A stretch of DNA of 59,218 bases from Bdellovibrio sp. (GTDB lineage Bacteria > Bdellovibrionota > Bdellovibrionia > Bdellovibrionales > Bdellovibrionaceae), in contig JABWCO010000003.1 in NCBI GenBank assembly GCA_013360185.1, forward strand, positions 1 to 59,218, in the 5' to 3' direction. This document shows positions 1 through 59,218 of this stretch, in pieces. Every line of letters starts with the position of its first letter. Within the stretch, counting starts at the first letter, position 1. Position numbers and translations under genes: made by a program. The notes beneath the pieces are model-generated. The model did no database searches. It saw only the letters and a list, made by a program, of their open reading frames with translations, and was not told where the DNA came from.

Positions 1-350
1 GGGAATCCTCTGAGGGAATGGATAGACTCTGCCGAAACAAATGGTATATTTATTGCCCGTACAAGTAATATTCATTCCAGATTATTAATAGACTCTGATG
101 AATTGCAAGGATTTGCGATAGCAGACCATTTTGCCCCTTTTATTTTTGTAAATTCTGAAGACTGGAATACAGCACAGTTATTTACCTTGGTTCATGAACT
201 GGCTCATCTTTGGATTGCCGCCAGCGGTATTTCAAATGCTGTTAACTTCGATCAAATAAAAGGAAATACGTATCACAAAGTTGAGCGTTTCTGTAATGAG
301 GTGGCGGCATCTGCTTTAATGCCGGAAAAATTATTACGATCTGAAAACAT
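1..350 (+). pseudogene. ImmA/IrrE-family metallopeptidase domain fragment (5' truncated by window edge, joined in frame to murD)
   Basis: Frame 1 is open from base 1 and reads NPLREWIDSAETNGIFIARTSNIHSRLLIDSDELQGFAIADHFAPFIFVNSEDWNTAQLFTLVHELAHLWIAASGISN...KVERFCNEVAASALMPEKLL. HELAH zinc motif and the typical FCNEVAA..LMP segment. No stop before murD. Confidence 0.8.
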
Positions 351-351
351 A

Positions 352-1734
352 TCTGAGTTTAGTGATTTAAAAGATAAAAGAATTTTAGTGGTCGGTTTGG
401 GTAAGACAGGGGCTTCTTTAGCGCACTTCTTAACGAAGCATGGCGCACAAGTGACGGTGACGGACCATAAGTCAAAACCGGAACTATCAACGCAGCTTGA
501 ACAGCTGGGTGATTTGCCCATCAAGTTTGAATTGGGTGGACACAGTCCAAAAACTTTCATTGCGCAAGACTTGGTGGTTTTGTCTCCGGGTGTGCCGAGC
601 AATTTAAAGATTTTTGATTACGCGCGTTCGCAAGGTATTCGTATCACGGGCGAGTTTGAATTTTCTGCGGGCTTTATCAAAGAGCCCATTATCGGAATTA
701 CAGGCACCAACGGTAAAACAACCGTGGCGAAAATCACAGAGGCGATGTTGACTGCTTCTGGGATTAAGACGTGGGTTGGTGGTGCTAATGAAAAACCTTT
801 GGTTGATTATTTGCGTGCTGATGACCGCGCCCAGGTGGTGATTGCGGAAGTTTCTAGCTTTATGCTTGAGCATTGTGACACTTTCAGCCCCATGAATGTG
901 GTCTTTACGAACTTAGCTGAAAATCACTTGGATCGTTATCGTTCCATGGAAGAATATGTTAATGCCAAACGCCGTATTTTCAAAAACACCAACCAGGCAA
1001 CGACGAGCATTTTGAATGCGGACGACAATGCCGTGGTTGAATTGGCTCGTGACCCGGCTGTGCAACGTGGACGTATTTTTTATTTCTCTCGTAAGCCGGC
1101 CTTAGAACCACAAATCATGAATATCGGTGGTGCTGTAAACATCGGCGATGAAATCAAAGTTCGTACGGGGCCAGAGATCGAAAGCTTCACGATCAAAAAC
1201 ATGAAAATGCGCGGTAAACACTCTGTGGAAAACATGATGGCAGCGATCCTGTCATCACGCGAGCACGGAGCCAGCCGTGAAGCCGTTCAATCTGTGATTA
1301 ACACTTTCACCAGCTTGCCTCATCGAATTGAATACGTGCGTAAAGTTGGCGGTGTGATGTTCTATAACGATTCAAAAGCGACCAATGTGCATGCCGTTTT
1401 GCGTGCCTTGGATACTTTTGATGAAAATGTGATTTTGATCGCTGGTGGTAAAGACACCAATCTGAACTATGAGCCTTTGCGGAACGCGGTAAAAAGAAAG
1501 GTCAAGACCTTGATCTTAGTCGGGGAAGCGAAAGAGCGTATCAATCGCGACCTTGGTGACTTCTCTGAGACCTTCTTGATCGGTACATTCGAGGAGGCGG
1601 TTTTAATCGCTTACCAAAAGTCGAGAATTGGTGACATTGTTCTATTGTCACCAGGCTGTTCAAGCTTTGACATGTTTGACAGTTTCGAAGAGCGCGGCGA
1701 TTATTTTAAGGAAATCGTTAAAAAGTTTAATTGA
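352..1734 (+). CDS. murD: UDP-N-acetylmuramoylalanine--D-glutamate ligase (MurD); native start codon not evident
   Basis: DLKDKRILVVGLGKTGASLAHFL, GITGTNGKTTV P-loop, ENHLDRY, YNDSKATN motifs; followed by ftsW/murG/murC. Confidence 0.93.
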   Translation, partial: SEFSDLKDKRILVVGLGKTGASLAHFLTKHGAQVTVTDHKSKPELSTQLEQLGDLPIKFELGGHSPKTFIAQDLVVLSPGVPSNLKIFDYARSQGIRITGEFEFSAGFIKEPIIGITGTNGKTTVAKITEAMLTASGIKTWVGGANEKPLVDYLRADDRAQVVIAEVSSFMLEHCDTFSPMNVVFTNLAENHLDRYRSMEEYVNAKRRIFKNTNQATTSILNADDNAVVELARDPAVQRGRIFYFSRKPALEPQIMNIGGAVNIGDEIKVRTGPEIESFTIKNMKMRGKHSVENMMAAILSSREHGASREAVQSVINTFTSLPHRIEYVRKVGGVMFYNDSKATNVHAVLRALDTFDENVILIAGGKDTNLNYEPLRNAVKRKVKTLILVGEAKERINRDLGDFSETFLIGTFEEAVLIAYQKSRIGDIVLLSPGCSSFDMFDSFEERGDYFKEIVKKFN

Positions 1735-52626: not shown

Positions 52627-55600
52627 TTACTCGAAGTATTCTGGGTTGATGATGCGCGTGTACCGTGCAAGATCTTCGATAGAATACATAAGGTCACTGT
52701 GTGTAGTGGTTAATCTGCTTGGGGATAAAATCATACCCATAAGAGCAGAACCTGGAATGACTCGGCCAGATTCTAATTTAATTCTATTTGGTTCAACAGA
52801 TTCTACCATAACCTCTTGTGCCAAGGCGAAGAAGTCAACGCTTGCTAATTGGTCGTTAGATGTTTTGATTTCATCCAACTTCGTGAAAAGCGGTTGCAAA
52901 TTATCTAACGGGTGCTGTTGAATAAGTGGCATTGCTGCACTATACAAAGCTATCGCTTGTAACAACATCCCGCGAACCATTGGAACCTGCTTATCCCAAT
53001 TTAAATTTGGATTTGCTTTAAGTTCTTCATCCGTTAAAAGAATTCTATTGGCATTTAACGTTGTTAGCGCTTTCACCAACTCTGCCGCAGCTTCATTGCC
53101 GGCTTTTTCTAGCCCTTGCAGTTCCTCACTTGTCGCGATGATTTCTGCACTTGTCTTCTTGGTAAGCTCTTTGTTCGTTTGCTTAAGTGCTGCAATCTTG
53201 CTGTTTAGTTGCATGTCGGCGCCAGCCATTTTCAGGATCAACTCTGCCAACGCGTCTTTGTTTTCTATAAGCACACCCTTGCGAGCGGCTTCTTGTACAA
53301 GAACAGTGGCACCGATCGAATTGTCTACGGCATAAAACTTAACGCCCGCATTTGACGTTGAAGCTTGGCCAATGCGCGATACAGTCGCGCGATCTTTAAC
53401 AGTCTTGCCACCTTTTAAAGTACCCACTTTAAAGAACTCAGCAAATAGATCCAAACCTGCCATACGGTATTGGTTTGTATCAACGATACCACCTAAGATC
53501 GATGTATCTAGCAAGTTACGGTTGATAGTGACTGGTCTTCCAATAGTTTGCAAATTGTGGTTTTCATCCACAAATCCCGCGGTCAAATTGCCGCTCATGA
53601 TTTCTAACAACGTCAACATGTTCATTGAGTTGGCTGGGTTGCTAACTCCTAAGTAATACTTTTCGAACTCGTTATAGCTAATCCAACCAATCTGAGAATC
53701 ATCAGTCATGGCGCGCGGATTTGCTGTTAACAAGAATTGCAATGCGAACTGTTTGTCAAAACCGATACCCAATGTATCCATGCGACCAGTCGTTACATCT
53801 GTGTACTTGTCATACACGCGACGGGCTTCAAGGATTCTGACATTTTGTACTTCTTCAACCAAAGCTCTGCCTTGGGCATCCACCATCTGTGCACCTTTAG
53901 AGTTCAATTTTGGTTTGCGAGTCACGTAAGGGACTGCCATCAAACGCTGTTGAATCTCTTCTCTGCTTGAACCAACAGAAGCCTGAGTGTCCGGAATACG
54001 CAGAACTTCATGGAAGAAGTCGTAACCCAGTTGTGAAGCCTGACGGAAGTCCTGCATCTCTTCTGCACTTAAAGCTGAACCGTAAATGTCCATTTTGAAG
54101 TAAGAGTCCAAGAAGCTGCGGATTGTACTGAATTTGCCAATCGAACCCTGAATCATTCTTACTTTTTCTGACCAGCCGAAATTCAAGCGATCTGCGGCGT
54201 GGTAACCCACTGCATAACTGCGGTGGTAGTTTTGAATTTCATTCTTAACAACTTCCGTTGCAGAGGCACCTTCGTCATACGGAGTACAGCCGGGCTCAAT
54301 TCCGACCTGACCATCGTTACATTGCCCGTACTGGCGTAAAAGGCCGACTTGTGCCAAAGCTAATTTTGGCATATTTGACCAGTTTTGCAGGCCTATAACA
54401 TTTTTTACGTCATCAAGTTTAATGAACTTCTGATTAACGATTTTAACTGTTTGTTTTCCGGTAATCTCATTGCCACCTTGTTCTTTTACAACTTCTTGCA
54501 TTTTTTGACTTAGTTCAACTAAGCCAGCATAAATCGCACGAAGAGCATGCACATCGTAAGTGCCTGGGCCTTGGTATTTCATTTCAGCCGCCGCAATATA
54601 ATCCATGATCGATGTATAGTTGCGTTTAGTCTCTTCGCCTTCGAAAGCAAAATTAGCTTTGTCAAAAGAAGCTTTATAGTTATGGATCAAACCAACGGCA
54701 TGACCGATTTCATGCAGAAGTGTTGCTTTTAATTCCGCTTTGAATGAAGTTTCAAAGTCTTGTGCCACAAACGCATCATTGTATTCAGTGCGTGCGTACT
54801 TAAAGCAAGCACCACGTTGACGTGCAGACTTTTCAAACTTTGCCGTCATCATTTGCATTTGTGCGCGTTTATTTAAAAGCTCCTTTGTTTGCGCAGACAT
54901 CCCAGGTTCTGTGCGTGCCAGCTCCTGGGCGATGATCGCCTCAAGCATAAGAGGGTCATTTTTAAAGTCACCAGATAGAGCTTCTTGCATCACACGACGA
55001 GTGAAATCTTTATTTGTTTTGATTTCAAATTCGTTGATAACACTTCTGCCTTTGGCACGTTTGTTAGACGCCAGTCCTTTGTTCGACAAAGACATCATCG
55101 CCGATGCATATTTAGATGACATACGCTGTTTCGTTACTGGTCGAGCCGAAAGTACCATTTTTTGAAGGTAGCTATGAGCTCTTTTGCTCGCTTTTTCGAT
55201 TTGTGCTGTGGCTGCAGCTGGTGTTGCCGCCGCAGGCGTGTCAGATGAAGAAGATGCTGCTGGTGCAGTGTCTTCTGTCTGTTGTTTTTGGAACTCTAGC
55301 AATGCCGCTTGTTTTGCTTCTTCCAACATTTTTTCATATTCACGGGCTTCGTTATAGTACGCCATTTGCCCACGTACGCTAGATTCTGTGTTCCCTGTGT
55401 AAACCATGACGTTATTGTGGACGATAGTTCCAGAGTTTGGATTTGGACCAGGCTGGGCAACACCCAAGAGTCCATTTTCTGTTGGAATATCAAAGAACCA
55501 CAAATAGTTTCTGTCCAAGTCACCCAAGTGACCACGATTAGAATCGTCTTCGTGCTGAAGTACGATATAGTCTCCAGACCGTTCTAAAGAAGTTCCTTTC

Positions 55601-57669
55601 AAAGCCTTGTGGAAAGCCACGTTCCATTCGGCAATAACTTCTTTTGCAGCTTCTTCGATCAAAGCGCGACGTGGAGAATTTGTTAAACCACCAATCCAGT
55701 ATTTTAGCACTTTTCCATCACGGAAATCATGGATGACCGGACGGTAGACTTCGCTGTTTTCACGGCCTGCACGAATTGTTGGGTCCGTGACTTTGTCGGC
55801 CAAAGTGAAGATCGCAAAGTTCATTGCGCCCTGAGCATCCGGAGAAATATTTGGAGCAAACTGAACGTCTTCGTTAGGATTTGTTTTCTTTTTGAAAGAA
55901 AGACGCTCTGTTACGTTGAAGTTTAATTGGTACATGGCTTTAACATAAGCACTGTTCGTTTCAACGACATTCGCACAATCAGGGCTCATGCCATAAGAAC
56001 TCTCGATCGAGAAGTTCATGATGCCATCGTTAGCTAAGCGGATATCAGGGGCTGTGACTGTCGCAGAACCTTGTGCCGTGATGCAACGGCCAATATCACT
56101 AAAATACGCTAGGGGCGAGTTGACGATAGGGAGGGTGTTTCTTGTCCAGTCGATTTCGATGTATTCGGCGTCTTCTTTTTTAGCGTCGATAAGTTTTGGC
56201 ACCTGCAAAGCAACGCCTTCCGCATTTACTTTTTCAAGTTTGAAGTACTTAACTGGAACGCTCATTAATTCTTCGCGATCCTTAGCGCCTTGGCCGATGT
56301 ATTGGATCAAGGCTTTTTGATTGCGAACGACCACGCGGTCTTTTTCTAGTTCGAATTTTACGATCGACAAGTCGCCGCTGGTGCCGGATTTTCCCACCAA
56401 CAACATATTTGAACCATCTTCAAAAGTTCTACGGAAATAGAACTCTCCAGAAAGATCAGCGACTTTGATTGTATTTAAAGGATCAATCATGCCCGTAGGA
56501 CGAGCGCGTTCCGCACGCACTTCGCGAGCGATTTCAACCAAGCCTTGTGATTGTGCTTTGGTAACTTTTCTGAATTCAATCGTATTGCTCGAATTTGCGC
56601 GCGAGTCCGCCAGGACAAGACGAGCATTTTTGTAAGTCACTGGAACTTTTGCAACTAAGCGCAAAACACAGTTTTTATCGCCACCTTCACAGCGCAAGAT
56701 TTCACCCGCCGCATGATTGGTTTTGAAAAGGCGCTTTTCATCATCGCTTAGCTTTTCAAAGCTCGTGACTTCGTAAACTTTTAAATCATCAGAATCAAGC
56801 TTCGTTAATACTTTTGCATCATCAGCGATGAATTTCATATTAATGCTATAGCGTGATTGCAATTCGCCAGCGGTTTGGGTTTTGTTATCCAATGAGTCTG
56901 TGGTGAAAAGTTGTTCTAAGTCGTTCTTTTGGTCCACGGAACCAATTTCTCTGCGACCATCAGATGTCATGCTGATTCTGATGTGCGTTGCTTGAGAAAA
57001 TTCAGTTTCACGCAAAGTCAGCGTCGAAGTGCTTTCACGCAATTCGTTTTTAGTTCTTTCTAAGATACCTTTTTGCTGAATTTCGTATTTGAACAACGGA
57101 ACTAGAACATTTACAGAAGCATTTTTTACTAGTGAAGAAGAGCGTTCTTTTTGGGCAACGGCAATCTTATCTGCAAGAGCTTTGCGAGCAGCTGCAGTGG
57201 AAGCCTTTTGCATATCAATGGCTAATTGCACTTCGCCGGGAGAAACGGCAAGTTGCTTTTCAAGCTTGGTCAGGGAGTTTAGATCATTAGTTTGTTTGTA
57301 AGCCGTCACGAATTTCGCGTCGACGCCGAAAACGATTTTAAATTTCTCAGCTTGTTGCCCAGAAACCTCTAAGTTTTCAAACATAAAGCGCAAGCGCTCT
57401 GGAACTGAAGAGTCGGCAGGATCAATTGCGACAAGACCTTTTTCCGCAACGGCCATATTCGATTGGCTTTGAGCTTTTTCTTGCGAGTTGACTTTACCGG
57501 CAGCTTGAAACCCTTTGCTTGTAGGTGTCTCAAACTCGCTGATAGCAAAGATGCTCAATGCTTCAGTGTCTGGTAAAGCAGCGTCGCGTGTCTTTGTACA
57601 ACCCGACACAAAAAGTGTGGTTGCAAGCAAAGCCGATAAAGCCTTTACGTATTGGTTATTGTCAGCCAT
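52627..57669 (-). CDS. very large metzincin-like zinc metalloprotease lipoprotein (~1680 aa)
   Basis: MADNNQYVKALSALLATTLFVSGCTK lipobox; HEIGHAVGLIHN (54679-54714) followed by YTSIMDYI Met-turn. Confidence 0.85.
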   Translation of the reverse strand: MADNNQYVKALSALLATTLFVSGCTKTRDAALPDTEALSIFAISEFETPTSKGFQAAGKVNSQEKAQSQSNMAVAEKGLVAIDPADSSVPERLRFMFENLEVSGQQAEKFKIVFGVDAKFVTAYKQTNDLNSLTKLEKQLAVSPGEVQLAIDMQKASTAAARKALADKIAVAQKERSSSLVKNASVNVLVPLFKYEIQQKGILERTKNELRESTSTLTLRETEFSQATHIRISMTSDGRREIGSVDQKNDLEQLFTTDSLDNKTQTAGELQSRYSINMKFIADDAKVLTKLDSDDLKVYEVTSFEKLSDDEKRLFKTNHAAGEILRCEGGDKNCVLRLVAKVPVTYKNARLVLADSRANSSNTIEFRKVTKAQSQGLVEIAREVRAERARPTGMIDPLNTIKVADLSGEFYFRRTFEDGSNMLLVGKSGTSGDLSIVKFELEKDRVVVRNQKALIQYIGQGAKDREELMSVPVKYFKLEKVNAEGVALQVPKLIDAKKEDAEYIEIDWTRNTLPIVNSPLAYFSDIGRCITAQGSATVTAPDIRLANDGIMNFSIESSYGMSPDCANVVETNSAYVKAMYQLNFNVTERLSFKKKTNPNEDVQFAPNISPDAQGAMNFAIFTLADKVTDPTIRAGRENSEVYRPVIHDFRDGKVLKYWIGGLTNSPRRALIEEAAKEVIAEWNVAFHKALKGTSLERSGDYIVLQHEDDSNRGHLGDLDRNYLWFFDIPTENGLLGVAQPGPNPNSGTIVHNNVMVYTGNTESSVRGQMAYYNEAREYEKMLEEAKQAALLEFQKQQTEDTAPAASSSSDTPAAATPAAATAQIEKASKRAHSYLQKMVLSARPVTKQRMSSKYASAMMSLSNKGLASNKRAKGRSVINEFEIKTNKDFTRRVMQEALSGDFKNDPLMLEAIIAQELARTEPGMSAQTKELLNKRAQMQMMTAKFEKSARQRGACFKYARTEYNDAFVAQDFETSFKAELKATLLHEIGHAVGLIHNYKASFDKANFAFEGEETKRNYTSIMDYIAAAEMKYQGPGTYDVHALRAIYAGLVELSQKMQEVVKEQGGNEITGKQTVKIVNQKFIKLDDVKNVIGLQNWSNMPKLALAQVGLLRQYGQCNDGQVGIEPGCTPYDEGASATEVVKNEIQNYHRSYAVGYHAADRLNFGWSEKVRMIQGSIGKFSTIRSFLDSYFKMDIYGSALSAEEMQDFRQASQLGYDFFHEVLRIPDTQASVGSSREEIQQRLMAVPYVTRKPKLNSKGAQMVDAQGRALVEEVQNVRILEARRVYDKYTDVTTGRMDTLGIGFDKQFALQFLLTANPRAMTDDSQIGWISYNEFEKYYLGVSNPANSMNMLTLLEIMSGNLTAGFVDENHNLQTIGRPVTINRNLLDTSILGGIVDTNQYRMAGLDLFAEFFKVGTLKGGKTVKDRATVSRIGQASTSNAGVKFYAVDNSIGATVLVQEAARKGVLIENKDALAELILKMAGADMQLNSKIAALKQTNKELTKKTSAEIIATSEELQGLEKAGNEAAAELVKALTTLNANRILLTDEELKANPNLNWDKQVPMVRGMLLQAIALYSAAMPLIQQHPLDNLQPLFTKLDEIKTSNDQLASVDFFALAQEVMVESVEPNRIKLESGRVIPGSALMGMILSPSRLTTTHSDLMYSIEDLARYTRIINPEYFE

Positions 57670-57739
57670 CGTTCTCTCCGTTCGATATTTGTCACCATCC
57701 AAGGCCCACATCGAATATATGGGTTCTTAGGCAATGACT

Positions 57740-59100: not shown

Positions 59101-59218
59101 ATGGCCTTTGTGAAATTCTTAGAAAACTTAGGGACATCGGCGGTTAATTTGGGGTATCTCGTTGGAATGATTCTGCTAATTCTTTGGGCACGGATTTGGC
59201 TTAAAGAAAAGAGAGACA
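59101..59218 (+). CDS. N-terminal part of a small membrane protein (truncated by window end)
   Basis: MAFVKFLENLGTSAVNLGYLVGMILLILWARIWLKEKRD, open to the window edge. Confidence 0.5.
   Translation, partial: MAFVKFLENLGTSAVNLGYLVGMILLILWARIWLKEKRD

Follow-up and report, generated by a model that had tools for sequence, protein, structure and literature searches.

The ImmA-MurD frame that opens this Bdellovibrio contig very probably represents a chimeric contig end, that is, an assembly artefact and no gene fusion. We base this reading on four observations: the frame lies at the end of a contig, the mraY-murD operon is split over two contigs, the ImmA piece has its closest relatives in another phylum, and the two parts meet at a shared stretch of about 17 bases.

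An open frame at the start of a contig

The window, i.e., the whole stretch of DNA that was analyzed, is the entire contig C150 (59,218 bp), and its base 1 is base 1 of the contig. C150 is one of the 227 contigs of an assembly of 3.54 Mb (96% complete and 1.9% contaminated). Frame 1 is free of stop codons from base 1, ends with a stop at 1732-1734 and encodes 577 amino acids. The sequence-only reading had described a continuous frame from an ImmA/IrrE domain into MurD, and the domain searches bear this out over bases 1-1734. Indeed, the Pfam domain Peptidase_M78/IrrE (PF06114) covers residues 42-116 (42.6 bits; cut-off 22), the ImmA part carries the HExxH motif in the form HELAH, and three Mur-ligase domains cover residues 126-551. 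The junction between the two parts is located only about 355 bp from base 1. The features relevant to its interpretation are:

1-357, + strand: putatively foreign ImmA fragment; Pfam M78; 85.6% nucleotide and 86% amino acid identity to L144, 79% amino acid identity to L050 (both described below)
355-374, + strand: junction microhomology that fits both parents; the ImmA relatives match up to 374 and the murD relatives from 355
358-374, + strand: core of the junction microhomology, TTTAGTGATTTAAAAGA; best of 675,688 17-mer pairings
355-1734, + strand: native murD from codon 4 to the stop; 90-95% amino acid identity to same-genus MurD; TIGR01087
59120-59217, + strand: right contig end, 98 bp also present at the C205 and C88 contig ends; exact match with abrupt divergence outside

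A lower GC-content of the ImmA part had also been noted. The difference itself was recovered (38.1% for bases 1-354 vs 45.3% for bases 355-1734), but 13 of 998 stretches of this length (354 bp) along the window have a GC-content as low, a count that includes overlapping stretches and 1-354 itself.

The opposite end of the contig is informative about the assembly. Its 98 bp at 59120-59217 recur exactly at the end of C205 and at that of C88; these two contigs are mutually identical over 99 bp, and all three diverge at once beyond this stretch. An overlap of 98 bases among three contigs appears typical of short-read graph assembly; it may reflect contigs that stop at a graph branch with words of about 99 bases, or else a short multi-copy repeat. 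Near this end, positions 52627-57711 (- strand) encode a 1694-aa lipoprotein-like protein with an LFVSGC lipobox-like motif and a zinc-metalloprotease motif (LLHEIGHAVGLIH).

The murD side and the split mraY-murD operon

The sequence from base 355 onward was identified as MurD (UDP-N-acetylmuramoyl-L-alanine--D-glutamate ligase) by the NCBI model TIGR01087, with 411 bits against a cut-off of 212. MurD was present in all 39 relatives searched, with 90-95% amino acid identity within the genus. Bases 355-1734 are a standard murD, in the gene order customary for the mraY-murD-ftsW-murG-murC cluster. Unlike the murD of this cluster, the copy on the contig lacks its start and its first three codons. 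The sequence-only reading had taken MurD to be complete, which does not hold. In the aligned DNA of the relatives, mraY is followed by TTGAGGTAAGAA ATG TAT AAA GAG TTT AGT GA.., and C150 starts to agree with this sequence at base 355, with the GAG of murD codon 4, so that the start codon and the two codons after it (ATG TAT AAA in the relatives) are gone. Alignments of same-genus MurD proteins to the fused frame start at its residues 109-118, beginning with codon 4 or 5 of murD, and none of these proteins comes with an ImmA part. The internal ATG at position 319, which had been suggested as a substitute start for murD, encodes the Met in 'LMP', a conserved ImmA motif. The GAGGTGG sequence ahead of it is located 14 nt upstream, too distant for a normal ribosome-binding site.

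It had been anticipated that mraY would be the left neighbor of murD and that it should be sought elsewhere in the genome. Both ideas proved sound. All 24 relatives examined, from the genus and the family, have mraY directly followed by a murD with its own intact ATG start (ATG TAT AAA GAG...). In the present genome, the sole match to the mraY family is at the extreme end of another contig, C196, where the gene faces outwards and is cut short. In 24/24 relatives, the position equivalent to this contig end and murD codon 4 lie 141-145 bp apart. Joining C196 to C150 across a short unassembled stretch therefore restores a normal operon, of which each contig holds one half. No direct overlap of at least 15 bp was found between C196 and C150, as expected with an unassembled gap between them. 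The assembly also contained no second copy of the mraY-murD start when up to three mismatches were allowed. Another protein of this genome resembles MurD (G000:C158:32782-34074; ~455 aa; 31-33% identical to MurD), and it has counterparts in nearly all genomes of the genus.

Origin of the ImmA piece and the junction

The ImmA part was traced to a different group of bacteria. This type of ImmA was detected in only 6 of the 141 genomes of the order, the source genome included, and in none of the other members of the genus. Its closest relatives were found in the Ignavibacteriaceae MAG L050 (79% amino acid identity) and in Bacteroidota. Another genome from the order of this MAG carries, on a 4.2-Mb contig (L144/L162), a gene whose identity to the ImmA piece reaches 86% for amino acids and 85.6% for nucleotides. 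This was the nearest sequence; no identical donor sequence was found. These similarities indicate that the first ~355 bases of C150 come from an Ignavibacteria-like organism.

The L144 protein (390 aa) contains the domains HTH_3 and Peptidase_M78 with the motif HELAH, and its gene overlaps a DUF4411 (PIN-like) gene, the two making up the locus L162:2153-3840 (- strand). We take this arrangement to be the layout of a toxin-antitoxin pair, and the donor gene resembles in these respects an XRE-ImmA/IrrE (M78, COG2856-type) antitoxin or repressor encoded beside a DUF4411/PIN protein. The locus also adjoins a gene resembling a catalase-peroxidase. Unlike such a system, the window holds only the middle of the XRE-ImmA/IrrE gene, which is cut on one side by the contig end and on the other by the junction: the N-terminal HTH, the C-terminal part and the PIN partner are all missing. 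The remainder of the gene was not found in the assembly either; the full-length donor protein matched only bases 1-378 of C150, plus one weak match to the HTH region. Searches of plasmid and phage collections gave no DNA match to bases 1-360, and thus no hint of carriage by a known mobile element; IMG/VR yielded only remote relatives of ImmA (42-49%).

We then mapped the junction from both sides. Identity between L144 and C150 is about 86% up to base 374 and falls to chance level beyond, where ImmA homologs continue with their own C-terminal part. The murD relatives match C150 from base 355 and not before, which leaves bases 355-374 compatible with both parents. Within the core (358-374), 16 of 17 positions are identical between L144 and the relatives' murD consensus. 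This overlap (TTTAGTGA-TTAAAAGA) is the best match among the 675,688 pairs of 17-mers that can be formed between the immA gene and the initial 600 bp of murD. With the relatives' consensus alone, the junction also ranks at the top of 6,654 registers, although narrowly (17/27 vs 16 for the next one). A scan of viral contigs with the 20-base junction word returned one matching stretch. Overlap or graph assemblers would be expected to connect two unrelated genes at just such a position, their best shared word, and so would template switching.

Alternative origins of the join and implications

The sequence-only reading had left two options, a misjoin or the recombination of foreign DNA at the start of murD with a foreign initiation site. 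The first is strongly supported by the contig end, the presence of mraY at another contig's end at the expected distance, the donor from another phylum and the ~17 shared bases, whereas the second found no support. Under the second option, an Ignavibacteria-like immA piece would have recombined in a real strain through the 17-base stretch shared with the start of murD, yielding an ImmA-MurD fusion or an internal start. The open in-frame ORF and the lower GC-content of the ImmA part are consistent with such an event, and XRE-ImmA genes are found in toxin-antitoxin loci that pass from one genome to another; the donor itself lies next to a DUF4411/PIN gene. Real recombination can also be mediated by microhomology. 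However, the fusion is confined to a contig end, and mraY terminates a different contig with precisely the spacing expected. No further part of the immA gene or locus is present in the assembly, the fusion is absent from all 39 relatives in which it was sought, and murD, an essential gene, would lose its start. We therefore consider this scenario highly improbable. Two further points speak against a misjoin: the lack of an identical donor sequence, and the in-frame continuation, which is also expected of a real fusion. Agreement of frame at a join, though, has a one-in-three chance and, given the short shared stretch, is unremarkable.

The join could also have been formed in the library, as a chimeric molecule that arose by template switching through the shared stretch (during PCR or whole-genome amplification) and was retained by the assembler. 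This would be one form of the artefact, included in the likelihood given to a chimeric contig and not additional to it. The same microhomology would favor template switching, but a single chimeric molecule usually has low coverage and is clipped, and an extension of 354 bp requires several reads or one long read. A library origin is thus rather unlikely, and within the artefact reading the assembler is most likely the maker of the join.

We infer that the sample was mixed and that, in the short-read assembly, the path through murD was extended in reverse as far as the 5' end of the gene, the ~143 bp that separate mraY from murD codon 4 being left unassembled. At TTTAGTGA(T/C)TTAAAAGA, a word shared by chance with the immA of a co-occurring Ignavibacteria-like bacterium and whose effective length at the join is presumed, the assembler would have crossed over, gone about 355 bases into immA and then stopped. 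The two reading frames would agree by chance and give the appearance of an in-frame fusion. In the bacterium itself, mraY would precede murD, which would start from its own ATG.

Short-read metagenome assembly is known to suffer from chimeric contigs formed through shared words (PMC7299287). As in those cases, two unrelated genomes appear to be joined at a short shared word at a contig end; the difference is that the reading frames happen to coincide here, hence the look of a gene fusion. Real recombination, if true, would mean that ImmA is fused to an essential cell-wall enzyme. This fusion is almost certainly not a real feature, and automatic annotation would nevertheless list a 577-aa ImmA-MurD protein. 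The case is a caution that a chance shared word can yield in-frame 'fusions' at the contig ends of fragmented assemblies, and the gene order of relatives combined with base-level mapping of both half-junctions constitutes a test that may be used on similar cases.
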